This document shows, piece by piece, positions 4,606-33,896 of a stretch of 40,871 bases of DNA (its first letter is position 1; each line of letters begins with the position of its first letter). The notes below the pieces were generated by a model. It had not been told where the DNA came from. It saw only the letters and a list, made by a program, of their open reading frames with translations, and searched no databases. Position numbers and translations under genes: made by a program. The stretch comes from a virus, in IMG/VR virus record IMGVR_UViG_3300002180_000027, positions 1-40,871 of that record; one strand, written 5' to 3'.

Positions 4606-4767
4606 ATGGAAGTTTATTTATTAATAACGCTAACGTTAGGTTTATTTGTTCACCTTAGGGATTCTAGGGATTTTATTGATTATATAAACCCAAGAATCAT
4701 AGTTAAACATGCACTAGTAGGACTCATTTGGCCAGTAGTTGTAATGAATTGGATATTCAATCATTAA
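4606..4767 (+). CDS. Plus-strand small two-TM membrane protein at the P22 sieA position
   Basis: A 53-residue frame in the opposite orientation to its neighbours. Two hydrophobic segments (about 2-15, VYLLITLTLGLFVHL; about 32-48, ALVGLIWPVVVMNWIF) flank a short polar loop with RDSRDF. It has its own extended -10 promoter and ends inside the 3' end of the gp16-like gene (tail-to-tail overlap, 4757-4767). P22 carries the superinfection-exclusion gene sieA and the immI region between gene 16 and gene 9. This gene lies between the corresponding genes here, so superinfection exclusion is a reasonable positional guess, not an assignment. It shares a G-x3-HL[K/R]xS-x6-NP...IWP pattern with the 17280-17435 protein. 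No clear Shine-Dalgarno is seen. Confidence 0.6.
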   Translation: MEVYLLITLTLGLFVHLRDSRDFIDYINPRIIVKHALVGLIWPVVVMNWIFNH

Positions 4768-6598
4768 GTAAGTCTTTTATAGCTTTAAAGGCACCCTCTT
4801 CGTTGACACCTCTGACTTTCTTGATTCCAGCCTCGGCCACCTTGATTGCCGCATCAGCCTTAGTGGCTGGTATAGCTTGCCTAATCTGCCCTTGAAAACT
4901 TGTTTTTGCTACTGGACCAAATACAGAGTCTAACTCATCTACAAATAAAACCTGAGTCAGTAAGTCGTCGTCAAAGCTTGATCCGTATTTTTTAGCGGTA
5001 GATTCAATATTGTTAACCGCATCTAGCAGCCTAACTCTTGATTGCGCATTACTCATTAACCGTCTTAATAAAGTTCCCGTTGCATCGTCCGCGCTTCCCG
5101 CAGATAAATTCATTTTTTTACCAGCGACATCCTGAAACGAGTTTAAAGCGTCAATTGTATCCGCATATTTTTGGTTTACAGCGTCATATTTAGGGAAACT
5201 TTCGTCTAGCGACTCGTCAACTTTACTTCTAAGCCGCTTTAAAACTCTTTCGGCACTGCCCTTTAGCCCTTCTCCAGACGAACCATAGGTCACATTTTCA
5301 TCAATAAATCTTTTTAATCGATGCATTTCGTGAGCGTCCGATGATTTAACAGACTTTAACCTACCAATTATTTGCCTAACAGCTTTCATTGATCCCCCCA
5401 GACCTTCTATATCAGAACCTTTAAATATAGGGCTCCCCACCTTATCAAAAGTAACCCCCATTTCATCCAAGGCATTTGAAAAGTCGTTAATTGCCGCGGT
5501 GTTATCAACCTTCTTACCTTTCAGGGTCTTAGCGACCTTATCAAGCTCTATACCTGATGATCTGTTAACGTCCCTGACCGCCTTAAATCTTTCCATAAGC
5601 GAGTCGCCAGCAATGGAGGACGGTCTATTTTTTACTGCATAAAGCGCATTTCTCTTACCTCTCTCCATAACATCAACCATCTTAAGCATTTTGGCTTTGT
5701 CGGCTGATGAAGAACCTTTCACCGCGGCAATTACGCCCTCATTAAACCCCTGCTTAATTGACTCAGATGCAATCTTATCTTTAACTATCTTGGGCGCTCC
5801 TGAGATAATTGAGTCCTCAAGTTTAAATTTTGCGGTAGCAACATCATCAGAACCAGCCTGAATTAACTCTGCAATCTTTTGCTTGGTTGGTGACTGGCTT
5901 CCTATTTTTTTTACCACTTTTCTAGTTGCTTTTGTGGCTTTCGGGATTACTTTAGATGCTATCTTTGGTGCTGAGCCAGCGCCTTTAAATCCAGCAACCT
6001 CTAAGGCCGTTTGTGGTCCAGCTATACTAAAAGCCTCGCCAATACCTTCGCCCACCTTCGCTCGCTCGCTTAACGACTGGTCAGATACCTGACTCACTGT
6101 CGCGCTGACTGGATCAGCAATGAACGCACCGGTTTGTTTCATGATGTCGGTAAACCCTGATTGAGCGCGCTTTAACTGGTCAACAATCGGCTTAAACACG
6201 ACGCTATCGCCTAATGAGGAAATCGTTTCACCTAACTTCCCAGCAACCTCTAGGCCGCTTTCAGATAAAGGTGTTTGAATATCTTTCTGCGCCTTCTGAA
6301 CCGCCTCTAAACCTTTCTGCGGATCTCCACTAACAATACTTGGGATAGCTGTCACACCACCAACAACTTGTGCAGGAATACTGGTTGCTATGTTTTGAGC
6401 TAAGTTTGCAGTGCCTGCGACATCAGAAGGCGTTATACCAAATAAGCTAATGTCTTCCATTGGATCGATTTGACTAAAATCAATTTCTTTGTTTTCTGGC
6501 TGCCTACTAGCCAATTCAGCTTGGATCTGCTCGATAGTGACGCCTTTTGACGGCTGCCTACTTGCTAATTCAGCTTGTATTTCTTCGATAGTTGCCAT
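4757..6598 (-). CDS. DNA ejection protein, P22 gp16-like
   Basis: A 613-residue, mostly helical protein in the gene 16 position, last of three ejection-type genes. The N-terminus carries two near-identical copies of I-E-[EQ]-I-Q-A-E-L-A-S-R-Q-P (about residues 4-15 and 22-33), a repeat often seen at the start of phage gp16-type transfer proteins. A hydrophobic/amphipathic stretch around 65-130 could insert in a membrane during injection. The rest is lysine-rich and helical. In P22, gp16 leaves the capsid with the DNA and is needed to get the genome across the inner membrane. The ATG overlaps the upstream stop by one base. No lysozyme motif is visible. Confidence 0.65.
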   Translation of the reverse strand: MATIEEIQAELASRQPSKGVTIEQIQAELASRQPENKEIDFSQIDPMEDISLFGITPSDVAGTANLAQNIATSIPAQVVGGVTAIPSIVSGDPQKGLEAVQKAQKDIQTPLSESGLEVAGKLGETISSLGDSVVFKPIVDQLKRAQSGFTDIMKQTGAFIADPVSATVSQVSDQSLSERAKVGEGIGEAFSIAGPQTALEVAGFKGAGSAPKIASKVIPKATKATRKVVKKIGSQSPTKQKIAELIQAGSDDVATAKFKLEDSIISGAPKIVKDKIASESIKQGFNEGVIAAVKGSSSADKAKMLKMVDVMERGKRNALYAVKNRPSSIAGDSLMERFKAVRDVNRSSGIELDKVAKTLKGKKVDNTAAINDFSNALDEMGVTFDKVGSPIFKGSDIEGLGGSMKAVRQIIGRLKSVKSSDAHEMHRLKRFIDENVTYGSSGEGLKGSAERVLKRLRSKVDESLDESFPKYDAVNQKYADTIDALNSFQDVAGKKMNLSAGSADDATGTLLRRLMSNAQSRVRLLDAVNNIESTAKKYGSSFDDDLLTQVLFVDELDSVFGPVAKTSFQGQIRQAIPATKADAAIKVAEAGIKKVRGVNEEGAFKAIKDLLND

Positions 6599-7818
6599 TA
6601 TTGACCTTGGTTAAGTAGGCTTTGTAATTGCTCGGGTGTCATATTTTTTAGCTGTTCAGGAGTTATTTGATCTATTGGTTTGACTTGTGGCTGTCCACCT
6701 TCAAGCTGATTCTGTTTTGTTTCTATATCCCTTCGCTTCTGATCCATAAAAGCATCTAACTGAGCTAGCTTTTCATCGGCTGTCGCGTCTGGATCGCCCA
6801 TCGTAGCTCGTAATGCGTCACCTTCCGGGACTGTAAAAGCAGCTCCAAAGGTTGGCTTCAATAACGGCAAGACTTGATTATCTATTATAGCTCTAAACTT
6901 AGCCCTCGCTGTTGATCCTTTCGTTGCGCCAAAACCAAACTCTTTAACTGCGGCATCAAATAACTTTCCACTCATTGTGCTTGTCACTAACGGTGCTAGT
7001 TGTCTTAATTGACCTATTGCATCTGTAAGACCCGGCAGTGCCGCATTCATTCTGCCTAAATCCGTTAAAACCTCACCCCGCTCTATCGCGGCTTTTTCAG
7101 CCAATTTAACAGCTTTCATTATTTTAGGCTTAAGTTTTATTTGAGACTTTAATTTCTCACCCTCTCTTGCACCGGCAATATCAGCCTCGTGACTTACGTC
7201 CAAATCAGATAGCCTGTCATCCTCTAGAATCCGCTCTTTTCCTGTGGATGTTTTTTTAGCTACTTGGCCAAGCTTAACTAAAGCAGAGCTTTTCTCAACC
7301 TCTGTCGAATTTGGGTTTTGAGCAATATCAAGAAGATTTGAAAATTCTCTTTGTCCAGCGGTCTTGCCACCTTTGAATTCTTTATGCAGCATAAAATTAG
7401 TGGCATCATCAAATTGCTCATTAGTTAAGTTCTGCTCATCCTCGCCAAAGTCGATATTTTCGTCTAAAAACGCCTGCTCTTTCAGCATCTCCCTTTGGTC
7501 CATATCAGCACTTTTCCACTGAGTAGCCCAGTCCAGAGTTTTCTTTTTTATTATTTTCGCTTGAGCAACGCCTTTCTCTTGTGTCATTTTATTGAAATGG
7601 TTATCTATCTCCATTCCTATCCCTGGATTTAATGCGAAAACTTGATCCATAGCATCACTATCACCCTGTCTGGCTTTCAGTATTAAGCCTTGCATTTGCT
7701 CTCGCTGAGATTTTAAATCAGCCTGTTTGCCCTGCTCTCTAAATTGATCGCCAAGGTTTTGAAGTGCTGCGCCCGGCCTGAATCCACCAAGCGGATTTAT
7801 GTTGTAATTAACTCGCAT
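6598..7818 (-). CDS. DNA ejection protein, P22 gp20-like
   Basis: A 406-residue, strongly helical, charged protein in the gene 20 position between gp7- and gp16-like genes. The N-terminus (INPLGGFRPGAALQNLGDQF) and the long alpha-helical body rich in K, E, Q and A resemble phage DNA-transfer proteins. A proline/glutamine-rich tail with ITPEQLKNMTPEQLQSLL repeats ends the protein. In P22, gp20 is a minor internal protein ejected with the DNA that helps form the trans-envelope conduit. I start it at the ATG at 7818, with GGAGG 9 nt upstream; a TTG six bases earlier is possible. The start sits just after the upstream TGA. Confidence 0.6.
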   Translation of the reverse strand: MRVNYNINPLGGFRPGAALQNLGDQFREQGKQADLKSQREQMQGLILKARQGDSDAMDQVFALNPGIGMEIDNHFNKMTQEKGVAQAKIIKKKTLDWATQWKSADMDQREMLKEQAFLDENIDFGEDEQNLTNEQFDDATNFMLHKEFKGGKTAGQREFSNLLDIAQNPNSTEVEKSSALVKLGQVAKKTSTGKERILEDDRLSDLDVSHEADIAGAREGEKLKSQIKLKPKIMKAVKLAEKAAIERGEVLTDLGRMNAALPGLTDAIGQLRQLAPLVTSTMSGKLFDAAVKEFGFGATKGSTARAKFRAIIDNQVLPLLKPTFGAAFTVPEGDALRATMGDPDATADEKLAQLDAFMDQKRRDIETKQNQLEGGQPQVKPIDQITPEQLKNMTPEQLQSLLNQGQ

Positions 7819-7820
7819 TA

Positions 7821-8402
7821 TCAACCGCCTCCACTAAACGGTTGCCAGCCTAAGCCGCTAGCCAACCCCAAACCACCACTAACCATACCCATAAGATTTC
7901 CAAATCCAGCTTGATTTGCGTTAGCAATGCCCATACCGGCCGAGCCGACATTTTGGCCCATTTGGTTTAATTGATTTGTGACAGCATTAGTATCAACAGG
8001 CATTCCCGCCAACCTAGATTGACCTTGCAAGCGTTGATTAACCATTTTATCAAGCAGGTTTACACCAACATTACCCATATCGATAGCGCCACTACCAGAG
8101 CGACTCATTCCGAGCGCCTGATTCCTGTCACCAACACCCTCTTGACCAGCTTTTAAAAGCCTAGAATATAACGGGCTTGATTGAACAGTATCAATAAGCT
8201 GATTCTGGGCATTAGCATCACCGCTATAAAAACCCTCTAGCCTGGGCAATATTCGATTACGCATATCAAGCAAAGGCTGGTTCGCTTCAATCTGATAGTC
8301 GAGACCTCTTTGTTGAAAACCTAGCTGCTCATCACTAGCCCGTCGGATATCTTTTCCGGGGTCGCCAAAAAGAGCTTTTGATATACTGCTAAATAAAGCC
8401 AT
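7821..8402 (-). CDS. DNA ejection protein, P22 gp7-like
   Basis: A 193-residue protein in the gene 7 position. The N-terminus (MALFSSISKALFGDPGKDI) is amphipathic. The middle is Q-rich (QRGLDYQIEANQPLLDMRNR), typical of podovirus internal proteins. The C-terminus is unusually G/A/M/N-rich (GMGIANANQAGFGNLMGM...), as in membrane-inserting ejection proteins. It is presumably packaged in the head and released with the DNA. The ATG at 8402 has GGTG 6 nt upstream; a GTG at 8411 is a weaker option. Its stop lies 2 nt from the next ATG. Confidence 0.55.
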   Translation of the reverse strand: MALFSSISKALFGDPGKDIRRASDEQLGFQQRGLDYQIEANQPLLDMRNRILPRLEGFYSGDANAQNQLIDTVQSSPLYSRLLKAGQEGVGDRNQALGMSRSGSGAIDMGNVGVNLLDKMVNQRLQGQSRLAGMPVDTNAVTNQLNQMGQNVGSAGMGIANANQAGFGNLMGMVSGGLGLASGLGWQPFSGGG

Positions 8403-17279: not shown

Positions 17280-17435
17280 CTATTTGACGAATATGATAGG
17301 CCAAATGAATGCAAACATAGCGGCATTTATGGCAAGATAGAACGGGTTTAGCGCTTGATGCCATGATTCTGACGCTTTAAGGTGGCAGAGAACCCCAATT
17401 ACTACGCCAATACCAAAATATAAGTTAATCATCAT
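17280..17435 (-). CDS. Small two-TM membrane protein between TerS and TerL (51 aa)
   Basis: A 51-residue frame beginning MMINLYFGIGVVIGVLCHL, with a second hydrophobic stretch about residues 31-49 (FYLAINAAMFAFIWPIIF) and a polar SESWHQALNP loop between. The first ATG is inside the last codons of TerS, with GAGGG 8 nt upstream. The pattern G-x3-HL[K/R]xS-x6-NP-x(11-12)-IWP is shared with the plus-strand protein at 4606-4767, so the two look like members of one small family. The function is unknown; the opening topology could suit a holin, antiholin or exclusion protein. Confidence 0.65.
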   Translation of the reverse strand: MMINLYFGIGVVIGVLCHLKASESWHQALNPFYLAINAAMFAFIWPIIFVK

Positions 17436-17916
17436 CTAATAAACCCTCAATTTCTTTATCTACATCATCCTCTGACATGTCGGTTACATCTTTTACGCCA
17501 ACAATCCCAGAATGCTTTGTTTCTTGGAACATTTTGTCACCGTACTTCTTTGGCTGCAACTTTGAAGCAAGCCATTTCCTGGTATCGAGTCTTAATCTTG
17601 TCCTTTGTACGTACTCTCCATTAGCCTTGTAGCCCTCGTTATCCTTATCGTTTACCTTCATCCAGTCGTTTCGACCATCATCAGCAATATCAATCATTTC
17701 ATCAGCAAAAGACTCTGCCGATTCTCGCTTAGCAATTTCGTAATGGTTCAGAAACTCTTGATTAGTCCTCAGCCACATAAATATTGTCGTCTTACAAGGA
17801 ATGTCGTCAGCCTCACAAATAGAGCGCATAGACTTTCCATCAGCCAACTGTGAGCATATTTTATCGGCTAACTCGCTAGTATATATGGTTGGCCTACCAT
17901 TCTTAGGCGCTGCCAT
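17425..17916 (-). CDS. Terminase small subunit
   Basis: A 163-residue protein. GRPTIYTSELADKICSQLAD, then GKSMRSICEADDIPCKTTIF followed by MWLR, is the N-terminal helix-turn-helix typical of small terminases. A central helical oligomerisation region (EFLNHYEIAKRESAESFADE, then MIDIADDG) and RLRLDTRKWLASKLQPKKYG follow, a conserved block of this family that is not homologous to P22 gp3. An acidic tail ends the protein. TerS rings recognise the packaging start site and stimulate TerL. GGAG lies 8 nt before the ATG. Confidence 0.85.
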   Translation of the reverse strand: MAAPKNGRPTIYTSELADKICSQLADGKSMRSICEADDIPCKTTIFMWLRTNQEFLNHYEIAKRESAESFADEMIDIADDGRNDWMKVNDKDNEGYKANGEYVQRTRLRLDTRKWLASKLQPKKYGDKMFQETKHSGIVGVKDVTDMSEDDVDKEIEGLLDDD

Positions 17917-24711: not shown

Positions 24712-24991
24712 TTCGCCTCCTATCGGCTGGCTGAGAAAGCGCTAAGCCACGGGCAGTTTTAGCTGCCTTTGATGTGTTTGAACTGTAAAGCGCTCTTAAT
24801 GCCGCATTACGCGACTTTTCGGTTATATTTCCAACAATCCCCACCACCTCTATTTGGCCTTTATTTCTTTTTAGTTGAAGCTCACCTAAAGCTTTTAGTT
24901 GTCGTTGAGCCTCATCTGACTTTAGAATTTCCGAGGATTTAACATGGATCACGCCAGCGCCCTCGATATTTATTTTTGGTTTGTAGCTCAT
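24704..24991 (-). CDS. Hypothetical protein
   Basis: A 95-residue basic protein that I do not recognise. Its N-terminus is beta-like (PKINIEGAGVIHVKSS) and the rest helical (EAQRQLKALGELQLKRNKG; SRNAALRALYSSNTSKAAK). The ATG shares one base with the stop of the lipoprotein gene (TGATG), and it overlaps the ParB-like gene downstream by 8 nt, so it is part of the lysis-to-accessory operon. Confidence 0.5.
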   Translation of the reverse strand: MSYKPKINIEGAGVIHVKSSEILKSDEAQRQLKALGELQLKRNKGQIEVVGIVGNITEKSRNAALRALYSSNTSKAAKTARGLALSQPADRRRND

Positions 24992-25239
24992 CAGTTTGCG
25001 TCTGGGTTAAAGTCGTCCACTGAATTACAAAGATCTGTCCAAATCTTAGATTTTTCAGGCGAGCCATAATGTCTCCGTATCGAACCCACGCTAGCCCCAT
25101 GACAGATAGTAAACTCAGCCGTATTGAGAGCTTCATCGTTAATTTCGCCCGCTTTATCTGCTAGGCCAATCAAGGTAGAGCAGCTCGATAAAAGCCCGTT
25201 TAATAGAAATGTCGCCAATACTAGCAATAGTTTTTTCAT
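24991..25239 (-). CDS. Outer-membrane-type lipoprotein, candidate o-spanin
   Basis: An 82-residue protein with a lipoprotein signal (MKKLLLVLATFLLNGLLSSC; LSSC lipobox, Cys20). The mature part (TAEFTICHGASVGSIRRHYG) matches a small phage lipoprotein family often found beside endolysin genes. Its place directly after the DUF5675 gene and single-TM proteins suggests a lysis role, possibly as outer-membrane spanin, although it lacks the proline-rich Rz1 pattern. Lipidation is a firm call; the spanin role is inferred. Confidence 0.6.
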   Translation of the reverse strand: MKKLLLVLATFLLNGLLSSCSTLIGLADKAGEINDEALNTAEFTICHGASVGSIRRHYGSPEKSKIWTDLCNSVDDFNPDAN

Positions 25240-25244
25240 GTGAA

Positions 25245-25625
25245 TTACCTTATTTCAATTGTGCCGGATGTTCCGGCTAGTTTAATTAACTTTTTTAATG
25301 TTGCTTTTGAATTGCTTACATCTGGTATTGAATCTCTGTTTATCCACCTAACCCCGTCGCCAATCAATATACAACCTTGAATTTGAGAGGTAAAGTTTCC
25401 TGCATGTAATTGGATGTATCGGCGCTTTGGCACGTCTCGAAGCTCTAACACAGGCCCATTGGATGGACTTTCTCTAAAATAATACTCGTAATTTCCAATA
25501 GGGATGCATGAAATATCTTGAACGTTGCCAATATCTGGAAGTTCTAGCGTGAAACATTGAAAGCCATTAAGCTCTAATCTGCCAATAGTGCAATCTTTGT
25601 TATGCCATCGGGTTATTTTGATCAT
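25245..25625 (-). CDS. DUF5675-type protein, candidate lysis enzyme
   Basis: A 126-residue protein matching the DUF5675 pattern: CTIGRLELNGFQCFTLELPD, then SCIPIGNYEY, VLELRDVPKRRYIQLHAGNF, QIQGCILIGDG and SIPDVSNSKATLKKL. H-x(8-10)-GCI resembles the His/Cys motif of YkuD L,D-transpeptidases; this is my inference. It lies in the lysis-like cassette between a TM/coiled-coil protein and a lipoprotein. No lysozyme, amidase or transglycosylase is found elsewhere in the window, making it the best endolysin candidate. It overlaps the upstream gene by 4 nt. Confidence 0.65.
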   Translation of the reverse strand: MIKITRWHNKDCTIGRLELNGFQCFTLELPDIGNVQDISCIPIGNYEYYFRESPSNGPVLELRDVPKRRYIQLHAGNFTSQIQGCILIGDGVRWINRDSIPDVSNSKATLKKLIKLAGTSGTIEIR

Positions 25626-25870
25626 CTATCCTCGGACTCCTCTAGCTTTTTAATGCGCTCTAAAGTGTATTTTTGAATGGCTGACAACTCTATAAGCTTG
25701 TCATTGTTTTTGATGATGTTCATCTGATTTCTTTCAATTGCGTCAATCTGCCTACTCATGGCCTCGGCGTAAGTGTCCAACTTGTTTGTGAATATGCCAA
25801 CACCAACAGCCGCCGCAACTAGGTTGGTTATGAAGAATATCGCTATTGGTATCCACCAGTTTTTATTCAC
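25622..25870 (-). CDS. Single-TM coiled-coil protein, candidate holin or inner-membrane spanin
   Basis: An 82-residue protein with an N-terminal TM helix (WWIPIAIFFITNLVAAAVGV, residues 5-24) followed by a coiled coil (LDTYAEAMSRQIDAIERNQM; TLERIKKLEESEDR). This layout fits either an Rz-type inner-membrane spanin or a small holin accessory. It lies directly before the DUF5675 gene and close to the lipoprotein gene. The function is inferred from layout and position only. Confidence 0.55.
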   Translation of the reverse strand: MNKNWWIPIAIFFITNLVAAAVGVGIFTNKLDTYAEAMSRQIDAIERNQMNIIKNNDKLIELSAIQKYTLERIKKLEESEDR

Positions 25871-26045
25871 TGGTTAATTTACTCATGGCTATTTTCATTC
25901 TTTTGATGTAACCCTCTTGGATTTGAATTACCTCTTCGGCCAACTCTGTATTTTGCTCTAGCTCGTCAATTACAGCCTCCGGCATATCTGACGTAGCTGT
26001 AGCATCAATTTTGCACAATAATATTTTACATCTTGCCGCGCTCAT
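25863..26045 (-). CDS. Small hypothetical protein in the lysis cassette
   Basis: A 60-residue protein with a short N-terminal hydrophobic stretch (CKILLCKIDATATSD) and an acidic helix (AVIDELEQNTELAEEVIQIQ). It is not recognised. It overlaps both neighbours (20 nt and 8 nt) and is therefore coupled to the TM proteins on either side. Confidence 0.5.
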   Translation of the reverse strand: MSAARCKILLCKIDATATSDMPEAVIDELEQNTELAEEVIQIQEGYIKRMKIAMSKLTSE

Positions 26046-26328
26046 CTTTCACCTTTAATTTATTTGGGTTTGTTGGGCCTGTCGTCAAATCACCTGGTTC
26101 GATGATGCCCTGCCTTATTAAAATTGCATTCTGGTCTTGTACGTGCATTTGCAGTATTCTAACCTCAGTTTTTGTTTCTTTAAACGTTTCTTGCAGTGCT
26201 GACAAACTAACCACAAGCCAAGCCAGCAATGTTGATATAAAGAACGAGAATACTATTAAGCCCACAAGGTAGCCTTTGTGCTCATCGTGAATTACGATAG
26301 TGCTCGAAGACCGCCTTTCCTTGTCCAT
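26026..26328 (-). CDS. Single-TM phage protein, holin-like
   Basis: A 100-residue protein with a cytoplasmic N-terminus, one TM segment (YLVGLIVFSFFISTLLAWLV, about 20-39) and a coiled coil (LSALQETFKETKTEVRILQM), then a proline-rich tail (EPGDLTTGPTNPNK). It resembles small phage membrane proteins coded in front of endolysin genes. A holin or antiholin role is plausible; one TM helix makes a class III-like topology. It starts 7 nt after the stop of the 55-residue gene. Confidence 0.5.
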   Translation of the reverse strand: MDKERRSSSTIVIHDEHKGYLVGLIVFSFFISTLLAWLVVSLSALQETFKETKTEVRILQMHVQDQNAILIRQGIIEPGDLTTGPTNPNKLKVKDERGKM

Positions 26329-27707: not shown

Positions 27708-28268
27708 CTAGGTAGTTCGTTTTGCATTTAATGCCTTAATTTTGCTTTTGTATTCTTCCTCGATTTGTAAATAATCGTCGCAAGTATATTTTTTGTTGAT
27801 TACTAGAGTTAACGCATCAAACCTTTTTATACCTATTCGTTCGATCAATCGTGGTGTGTATTCGGCTATATTTCCTGATAGGTGGTTATTGCATGGGCTG
27901 CATTGTTTATGGCAATTATCCTCATTAAACCTTAAATCAGATCTTGCGCCCACCGTTTTAAAGTGTCCCGCATGCCATTGACCCTTCCACAACTCAGTCT
28001 TATCGCAACTAATACAGCCCTTGTTAATGTCTCGCACCCTAATAAACCGGTTGAAATACTCTTGTGCGACCCTTTTTCTAAGTTTTATATCGCTAGCATA
28101 AAATACTTTTTTTCTTGCTACGTGTTTCTTTTTAGCCTTTTTAATGTCCTTCTGTCGATTCCATTCTATAGCGCAAGTAGGAGAGCAAACCCTAGCAGTC
28201 GTACTAAACGGTATGAATTCACCACTGCATATAGCGCATGCTTTGGGCTTTATCTCCTTGCTGTTCAT
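27708..28268 (-). CDS. ninG: NinG (Rap)-type recombination nuclease
   Basis: A 186-residue protein. The N-terminal zinc ribbon has ACAICSGEF and RVCSPTCAIEW (C-x2-C...C-x3-C). A helix rich in K follows (DIKKAKKKHVARKK). The C-terminal HNH-like core has GCISCDKTE, WHAGHFKTVGA, FNEDNCHKQCSPCNNHLSGN. This arrangement is characteristic of lambda NinG/Rap, a structure-specific endonuclease that resolves D-loops and Holliday junctions during phage recombination. The length fits (lambda: 204). The ATG overlaps the upstream stop (TAATG). Confidence 0.85.
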   Translation of the reverse strand: MNSKEIKPKACAICSGEFIPFSTTARVCSPTCAIEWNRQKDIKKAKKKHVARKKVFYASDIKLRKRVAQEYFNRFIRVRDINKGCISCDKTELWKGQWHAGHFKTVGARSDLRFNEDNCHKQCSPCNNHLSGNIAEYTPRLIERIGIKRFDALTLVINKKYTCDDYLQIEEEYKSKIKALNAKRTT

Positions 28269-32913: not shown

Positions 32914-33546
32914 TTACCTATCCTCAGCCAGCATCAATATAAAATCTTTTGACTTTTCCCATAAATCAGCAGACACCTCTCCATCCATTTCTATTAGCTT
33001 CTTTCTACTTATTTTAGACCACTGTTTTATTGTTAGCTGTTTACAGCCTATTTTAATATGGTTATCCGTGATTGTTACATGGTAGTGGTTTGAACTTATC
33101 GTTAATACTTTTGAGGTAGCTTTAGCATTGCCAGACACCCGAGCATTGCCAGACACCCAAGCATTGCCAGACACCCAAGCATTGCCATACACCCAAGCAT
33201 TGCCATACACCCAAGCATTGCCAGACACCAGAACATTGCCAGACACCCGAGCATTGCCAGACACCCGAGCATTGCCATACACCCAAGCATTGCCATACAC
33301 CAGAACATTGCCAGACACCAGAGCATTGCCAGACACCAGAGCATTGCCATACACCCAAGCATTGCCAGACACCCGAGCATTGCCAGACACCCAAGCATTG
33401 CCAGACTGACTTAAATTACTCTCAGATTCTAACCACCCACCAACATCACCCACTGAAACAGATAAAAACGCTGTAACGCAAACTATCTGCCTTAAGGTAA
33501 TACCTGCAACAATTTTTTCTTTTCCGTTAAACTTGTACTTATTCAT
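32914..33546 (-). CDS. NAxVxG hexapeptide-repeat (beta-helix-like) phage protein
   Basis: A 210-residue protein when started at the ATG at 33546 (GGAG 8 nt upstream, overlapping the previous stop). Residues 1-45 (NKYKFNGKEKIVAGITLRQI; DVGGWLESESNLSQ) are a conserved phage cap. About 16 hexapeptide units [SY]GNA[WRLV]V follow (about 48-140), forming a regular coil or small beta solenoid. The C-terminal domain (HYHVTITDNHIKIGCKQLTI, then KQW) is also conserved. The function is unknown. The 18-bp DNA repeat makes copy-number change by slippage likely. Longer non-ATG N-terminal extensions overlap the upstream gene and are unlikely. Confidence 0.65.
   Translation of the reverse strand: MNKYKFNGKEKIVAGITLRQIVCVTAFLSVSVGDVGGWLESESNLSQSGNAWVSGNARVSGNAWVYGNALVSGNALVSGNVLVYGNAWVYGNARVSGNARVSGNVLVSGNAWVYGNAWVYGNAWVSGNAWVSGNARVSGNAKATSKVLTISSNHYHVTITDNHIKIGCKQLTIKQWSKISRKKLIEMDGEVSADLWEKSKDFILMLAEDR
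33124..33406 (-). repeat. 18-bp tandem repeat, 15 full copies plus a partial one
   Basis: On the plus strand the unit is agcattgcca[g/t]acacc[c/a][g/a], repeated 15 times and ending in a 13-nt sixteenth copy. Variation is confined to three positions, which change S/Y and W/R/L in the hexapeptide. The period keeps long open frames on both strands; those other frames are repeat artefacts, not genes. Confidence 0.9.
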
Positions 33547-33896
33547 TGATTTAGCTCCGACTGTCTGTGGTGAATATCCATACAATCTTCTGGCTCCACT
33601 TCCATTGCGTTGACCGCTTCGATATCTTCTATTTCTTCGAGAGCCTCTTCTATACAAGCGTTTATCTTGATTTTAACGTGTTTATTAATAACATCCTCCA
33701 TGCATTCATCTACTGCATACGCATCAATAAAATCACCAGTATCTACCATTCCACATAAATCACTTTTTATATGTTCGTAGCCTTCATCCAAATCGCCGGT
33801 AAGTAATTTTAAAAACTCTTGTGCCTTAGTAATTGATAGATTTGGCTGATACTCACCATCTTTAACAAACTGTTGGAATTTATCGAGCTTTCTCAT
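33543..33896 (-). CDS. Acidic hypothetical protein
   Basis: A 117-residue, strongly acidic helical protein (KAQEFLKLLTGDLDEGYEHI; CIEEALEEIEDIEAVNAMEV). It is the first gene behind the divergent promoter at 33941-33968 and is coupled to the repeat protein by an ATGA overlap. Acidic early phage proteins sometimes mimic DNA, but nothing specific is seen. GAGG-type Shine-Dalgarno (AGAGGAAAG) sits close to the ATG. Confidence 0.55.
   Translation of the reverse strand: MRKLDKFQQFVKDGEYQPNLSITKAQEFLKLLTGDLDEGYEHIKSDLCGMVDTGDFIDAYAVDECMEDVINKHVKIKINACIEEALEEIEDIEAVNAMEVEPEDCMDIHHRQSELNQ

Follow-up and report, generated by a model that had tools for sequence, protein, structure and literature searches.

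The active sites of YkuD-type enzymes follow the full signature HX(14-17)[ST]HGCh[NR]. These enzymes act as L,D-transpeptidases (LDTs) and carboxypeptidases, and endopeptidase activity is described for LdtCd2/3 of C. difficile (PMC12729407). The PhaLP database of phage lytic proteins gives YkuD as a rare phage lytic domain with 10 entries (PF03734, PF10908 and cd16913), and DUF5675 was not found in the PhaLP passages searched, versus more than 560 viral contigs in the present analysis (PMC8310338). An LDT-like endolysin was proposed from synteny and HHpred for the Mu-like Vibrio phage Martha 12B12 in a 2022 paper (PMC9239132), and the concept of an LDT endolysin is therefore not wholly new. 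That proposal covers a single phage and a weak similarity, with no family name, conserved residues or experiment. Judged by genome position, the Martha 12B12 enzyme appears to be the DUF5675 gene L006:5914-6336. The T6SS effector Tlde1a (PF10908; PMC9638812) uses an LDT fold as an antibacterial weapon, as is proposed here for DUF5675, but it differs in its T6SS delivery, its immunity protein and its LD-carboxypeptidase (LD-CPase)/exchange chemistry, and DUF5675 has no above-cut-off match to its family. For ssDNA phages, an endolysin role has been proposed for the M15 peptidases of microviruses (PMC3394797), peptidoglycan hydrolysis has been demonstrated for the microviral protein Ebor Gp7 (PMC11980548), and gokushoviruses are noted to be without a known lysis gene (PMC7062461). 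The M15 enzymes and Gp7 are horizontally acquired wall-degrading enzymes, as DUF5675 would be, but they belong to families unrelated to DUF5675, and the activity of Gp7 is demonstrated whereas that of DUF5675 is putative.

In the literature searched, DUF5675 is named in two papers, neither of which gives it a function, and no demonstration of its muralytic activity was found. Here, a DUF5675 protein was analyzed in the 40,871-nt stretch of viral DNA that encodes it (the window). Computation established the family, predicted fold, conserved residues and genomic position of DUF5675 and its fusion to a muramidase, from which we infer a muralytic activity. DUF5675 is, with good confidence, the endolysin of this phage, a compact single-domain enzyme of the LDT (YkuD-type) fold with a Cys85/His74 active site that works by the mechanism proposed below, and the family very probably represents a widespread, putative kind of lysis enzyme. 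The family-wide identification of DUF5675, its active site, the fusion, the exclusion of classical lysins and the microvirus swap appear to be new.

The DUF5675 cassette of a P22-like podophage

The window is a linear 40.9-kb virus record without end repeats, so genes may be absent from it. Comparison of 67 plausible ORFs one by one with Pfam matched a P22-like portal and coat, an Sf6-like small terminase, a P22 tail factor (PF11650), lambda P and NinG, and the gene order and families identify a P22-like podophage. The first-pass annotation had recognized no classical endolysin, and this was borne out: the best 25 of the 29 Pfam families matched by the 67 ORFs at E ≤ 0.01 included no lysin family (the remaining four had E of about 0.005-0.01) in this possibly incomplete contig. 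An endolysin within the gp16-like protein (4757-6598) had been named beforehand as an outcome that speaks against the DUF5675 reading. This protein had no lysin match, and no endolysin was found there or elsewhere in the window.

Two other window proteins were considered and rejected as the lysin. The 408-aa gp20-like ejection protein (6598-7824, minus strand) has no PDB match and matches PHROG 26675, which is labeled 'endolysin', but only over residues 212-372 of 408 and profile positions 436-597 of 643. The matched stretch is ejection-protein-like and without a lysozyme signature. This label falls on the C-terminal half of the ejection protein, and automatic pipelines may mis-annotate such phages. 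The P22 gp4-like tail factor (PF11650) was rejected as a release lysin because in P22 this protein is wall-active at entry. A short-repeat protein at 32914-33657 (SGNAWVSGNAR...) is unusual beside the replication genes and is probably the source of a YdcK beta-solenoid repeat match (1e-20).

The DUF5675 gene occupies 25245-25625 on the minus strand, which also carries its cassette neighbors, NinG and the small terminase, and encodes a 126-aa predicted LDT-fold peptidoglycan peptidase and endolysin candidate. The protein matches PF18925 (DUF5675) with E = 3.4e-26 and 91.8 bits against a curated cut-off of 26.7 over profile positions 2-111 of 114, and PHROG 1501 (function unknown) with E = 5.9e-23. 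It has no signal peptide or TM segment. The first-pass annotation had placed the gene amid holin/spanin-like genes, and two one-helix proteins are indeed encoded upstream and a lipoprotein downstream. The cassette begins with a 100-aa protein with one TM helix (26026-26328), a holin or spanin candidate by sequence, followed by a 60-aa soluble protein (25863-26045) and an 82-aa protein with one N-terminal TM helix and a coil-like tail (25622-25870). The 82-aa gene overlaps the start of the DUF5675 gene, and its product is a candidate holin or inner-membrane spanin with a weak match to holin PHROG 9316 (E = 0.023). The downstream 82-aa lipoprotein (24991-25239) has a signal and an LLSSC lipobox, which make it an outer-membrane spanin candidate, and no convincing family match.

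The genes from 26328 to 24991 are tightly packed and in part overlapping. They lie between NinG (27708-28268; Pfam NinG, 2.3e-48; PHROG 171; ORF assigned by sequence and place) and the Sf6-like small terminase (17425-17916; Pfam Sf6_terminase, 2.4e-39; PHROG 1482; ORF assigned by sequence), the downstream boundary of the lysis/late region. In lambda and P22, lysis is encoded in this interval from NinG to the small terminase. The order of a one-TM protein of ~95 aa, a 60-aa protein, a one-TM protein of ~82 aa and DUF5675 was found again in contigs L016 and L021. Homology is detectable for all four genes in L016, where the identities are 55% for the first protein, 38% for the 60-aa protein and 31% for the ~82-aa protein, and for all except the ~82-aa gene in L021 (43% and 34% for the first two).

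Predicted fold and active site

The AF2 model of the window protein had a pLDDT of 86.7 and a pTM of 0.82 from a 60-sequence alignment, and the model of a divergent cellular homologue from Sphingobacterium had a pLDDT of 96.1. Foldseek alone gave no significant PDB match for either model, which counts against the endolysin reading. The top 1000 Foldseek chains from the PDB were re-aligned with VIA-align. This comparison with YkuD folds, named as a check in the first-pass annotation, put a block of LDT-fold structures on top for both independent models, and so the outcome named there as refuting, a structure with no relation to wall enzymes, did not arise. Ranks 1-19 for the window model were all LDT fold with Z of 7.7-9.3, and the next row had Z = 2.8; the matches included LdtMt1 (9.3), Bd1075 (9.3), Ldtfm (9.1), the LD-carboxypeptidases Pgp2 (8.8) and Csd6 (8.3), and DpaA (7.7). 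Ranks 1-22 for the Sphingobacterium model were all LDT fold with Z of 6.1-10.1, followed by 2.9. Its best match was the LD-carboxypeptidase Pgp2 (Z = 10.1, 111 residues, 20% identity), and DpaA and Tlde1a (Z = 8.7) were also among its LDT-fold matches. The predicted models thus give DUF5675 a YkuD-type fold. Sequence searches of the PDB returned nothing useful for the single window protein or for the DUF5675 profile, and matches of the profile to Sm-E (E = 0.2) were rejected as chance.

The first-pass annotation had noted an H...GCI motif reminiscent of LDT active sites. The motif is present in the window protein, which reads ...IQLHAGNFTSQIQGCILIG..., and in 148 diverse relatives H74, N77 and C85 are 99% conserved and G84 100%; this conservation indicates that the motif is not a chance occurrence. 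E28 and Y46 are 100% conserved in the same profile. The search patterns included TLE and SCIPxGxY, whose conservation is therefore biased, and the His and Cys motifs lie outside these patterns. Alignment of the 148-protein profile with the YkuD profile by hhalign gave E = 3e-6 and placed P-x-G-x-Y, I-x-x-H and G-C-I in register. In this alignment H74 (codon 25404-25406) and C85 (codon 25371-25373) pair with the catalytic residues of YkuD, which makes them the predicted catalytic His and nucleophilic Cys. In control alignments, E was at least 0.037 for 39 of the 40 YkuD profiles with shuffled columns and 0.34 for the reversed profile. The remaining shuffled profile gave an odd 24-column match with E = 9e-23, which is regarded as an artefact that arose from the shuffling of gap columns; the LDT structural match is independent of this anomaly.

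DUF5675 shares the predicted fold, the motif order and the catalytic His and Cys with YkuD-type LDTs and LD-carboxypeptidases such as LdtMt1, Ldtfm, Pgp2 and Csd6 (PF03734), but not the full YkuD signature. The window protein has H-x10-GCILIG, a His-Cys spacing of only 11 residues, with no Ser/Thr-His ahead of GC and no Asn/Arg behind GC-hydrophobic, the last of which counts against the endolysin reading. DUF5675 proteins also differ from YkuD enzymes in being small and single-domain, and the phage copies have no signal peptide. The window protein had no PF03734 HMM match at E ≤ 0.1, and DUF5675 is therefore a distant YkuD relative and not a PF03734 member.

Lysis context in tailed phages and microviruses

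Searches with tblastn found the DUF5675 family in 212-269 phage records, and an IMG/VR scan with a 4-sequence DUF5675 alignment found it in at least 564 stretches. The hosts include Vibrio, Campylobacter, Salinibacter, Cellulophaga, Rheinheimera, Microcystis and, for crAss-like phages, Bacteroides, and complete microviruses are among the carriers. Some crAss-like copies are annotated as transpeptidase, and most DUF5675 records say hypothetical.

Membrane proteins are overrepresented among the neighbors of DUF5675. Across 63 dereplicated viral loci, scored with a simple hydropathy predictor and ORF caller, TM segments were present in 59 of 90 small genes at ±1 versus 55 of 361 small genes farther away (p = 3e-20). 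Among 94 proteins scanned for families, nearly all ±1 neighbors and three of them encoded in the window, strong Pfam matches were limited to GTA_holin_3TM (5) and the lambda-type Phage_holin_3_1 (1). The same 94 proteins matched holin PHROGs 3427 (6), 126, 1296 and 1299, and Rz-like spanin PHROGs 2466, 1026 and 13 occur among DUF5675 neighbors. An annotated 3TM holin abuts DUF5675 in Vibrio phage 1.122.A. Mu-like ZX4290 has the order late activator, DUF5675, two genes, TraR, DUF2730 and terminase, which is the position of the endolysin in Mu, and DUF5675 lies within the lys locus of Mu-like Martha. In HP1/P2-like PE001, DUF5675 is followed by a 173-aa protein, a lipoprotein, a gene with the annotation 'in lys 3' region' and the tape measure, which is the HP1 lys position. 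The NinG phage 1.190.O also carries DUF5675, which counts for the endolysin position, and placement away from an obvious lysis cassette in some large phages, e.g. L182, counts against it.

Three Bacteroidota proteins fuse TM helices, a PF11860 N-acetylmuramidase (E = 1e-57 to 1e-63) and DUF5675 (L095:4585-6393, L096:4501-6387 and L101:4441-6324). Each would join a domain that cuts glycan to one that putatively cuts peptide, perhaps as a membrane-anchored bifunctional lysin that serves as a secretion or prophage lysis device.

Classical lysins are nearly excluded from DUF5675 carriers. Fifty DUF5675 records contained GH24 in none, Amidase_2 in none and M15_4 in one, and 46 random viral contigs contained GH24 in two, Amidase_2 in six and M15_4 in five, with 13 distinct carriers. 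The difference between 1/50 and 13/46 is significant for these three families (Fisher p = 2.6e-4), with control contigs of 24-110 kb drawn by arbitrary 14/15-mers and unmatched for host. These contigs replaced an earlier portal-based control set that was too small. GH19 was present in 0/50 DUF5675 records and was left uncounted because the search controls gave no signal.

In complete ssDNA genomes of 4.6-6.9 kb, DUF5675 is among very few accessory genes. MH992181, MW202581 and PV067912 each have an ORF of 26-30 aa with one hydrophobic segment (MTWLAQNWDSLMIVLNAIGTLFVVKKVK, MAWLRANWRTIITLLNTAGIAFLGVQ and MSFIVENAESIGIVFALIWNLFLQKTKAKK, respectively) that overlaps or abuts the DUF5675 3' end. 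Apis microvirus 3 encodes a mini-TM peptide of like kind in the same place with a GTG start (NWLADNWDAIMTLLNSVGILIVAKRKGVR); DUF5675 is not annotated in this genome, and an M15_4 peptidase (E = 7.6e-11) is encoded elsewhere. One microvirus thus pairs the mini-TM peptide with DUF5675 and another pairs it with M15_4, which looks like a wall-enzyme swap, and this is one case in which microviruses with an M15 endolysin and with DUF5675 have such a peptide in common. A membrane peptide of 28-30 aa is common to L382:2808-2898 and L003:3391-3477, which differ in their wall enzymes (M15_4 or DUF5675), and is a candidate mini-holin. The mini-TM peptides between capsid and pilot genes could be general microvirus features, and the other short hydrophobic peptides at other places in L009, L011 and L381 bear on this reading. 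These latter peptides (L009:3973-4056, L381:4616-4699 and L011:5333-5425) are of a second, Gly-rich hydrophobic kind of ~27-30 aa, and in two of the three genomes the peptide is directly upstream of DUF5675.

Proposed reaction and alternative roles

The proposal that DUF5675 is a different kind of wall-active lysis enzyme is supported by the predicted LDT fold and the muramidase fusion, the holin/spanin adjacency, the placement in lys loci and the near-exclusion of classical lysins. The endolysin would build up in the cytoplasm. The lack of an export signal implies that a holin must release it, and one or both neighboring membrane proteins may act as the holin that admits it to the periplasm. 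Cys85 would attack the stem-peptide bond that links meso-DAP at position 3 to D-Ala at position 4 and form a thioester, and water would resolve the thioester. With cross-linked stems as substrate, this L,D-endopeptidase reaction would open 4-3 cross-links. The downstream lipoprotein and a one-TM protein may form the spanin pair that completes outer-membrane disruption. Characterized YkuD enzymes mostly cross-link or trim, and LD-endopeptidase activity is reported for few, which counts against the endolysin reading. Within the lysin hypothesis, L,D-endopeptidase cleavage of existing cross-links is given about an even chance and is favored, with carboxypeptidase/exchange chemistry next.

A possible but doubtful version is an LDT-fold wall enzyme that lyses by LD-carboxypeptidase trimming of D-Ala4 and D-amino-acid exchange, so that further cross-links cannot be made and the cell bursts as it grows. 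This version falls within the lysin explanation, and the confidence placed in each overlaps. Tlde1a, an enzyme of altered LDT fold with both LD-CPase and exchange activity, is toxic to E. coli and shows that trimming and exchange by an LDT-fold enzyme can be lethal (PMC9638812), and the resemblance extends to the structural match of the second DUF5675 model (Z = 8.7) and to a sub-threshold PF10908 Tlde1 match of one microviral DUF5675 protein (E = 0.0095). Phage lysis, however, is usually fast and growth-independent, which favors cutting of existing cross-links, and the muramidase fusion and the exchange with M15 peptidase suggest degradation.

It is improbable that DUF5675 is a non-lytic wall enzyme for wall remodelling, a superinfection block or DpaA-like detachment of a Braun-type lipoprotein, with a true endolysin in an unrecognized protein. 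DpaA, which detaches Lpp, is among the fold matches, some large phages have DUF5675 far from recognizable lysis genes, and the window contig may be incomplete. Such a role fits poorly with the placement of DUF5675 exactly in lys loci adjoining holins, with the near-absence of classical lysins from the 50 records, and with its retention among so few accessory genes in complete microviruses. A shared fold shows no function and the Foldseek scores alone are insignificant, but a function away from the wall, for instance a structural role or action on another peptide in the cytoplasm, is highly improbable given the near-invariant Cys, His and Gly at catalytic positions, the muramidase fusion and the lysis-locus context.

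On balance, we lean towards DUF5675 being a major overlooked LDT-fold endolysin class of tailed dsDNA phages and ssDNA microviruses, which with the 26-30-residue membrane peptide would be among the smallest holin-endolysin modules in gokushovirus-like microviruses and interchangeable with the M15 peptidase. If so, the fold of a cross-linking enzyme used as a lysin would represent a new lysis chemistry, Cys thioester attack at an L,D bond. Hundreds of phage genomes, those of many Vibrio and crAss-like phages among them, would have their missing endolysin named; lysis by gokushoviruses, which have no gene E, would become directly testable; and a very small wall-cutting domain of about 125 aa would be on offer.

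Bacterial genomes contained 79 DUF5675 loci, mostly in Bacteroidota. The copies in L097, L099, L100, L102 and L108 (Flavobacteria and relatives) have an N-terminal signal-peptide-like segment and are therefore probably a Sec-exported cellular version. Cellular copies need not serve lysis, which counts against the endolysin reading. Many Flavobacteriia (L126-L171), among them Polaribacter, Lutibacter and Winogradskyella, have a conserved chromosomal subfamily with the motif HPAN..ELxGCIAPV. The His is lost in two of its members (L145 and L164), and the Cys is lost in L103 of another subfamily. In the jumbo Ralstonia phage RP31, a DUF5675 domain lies within a model of more than 1200 aa (BFVD A0A1L7N1E2_2), possibly a virion-associated wall enzyme.
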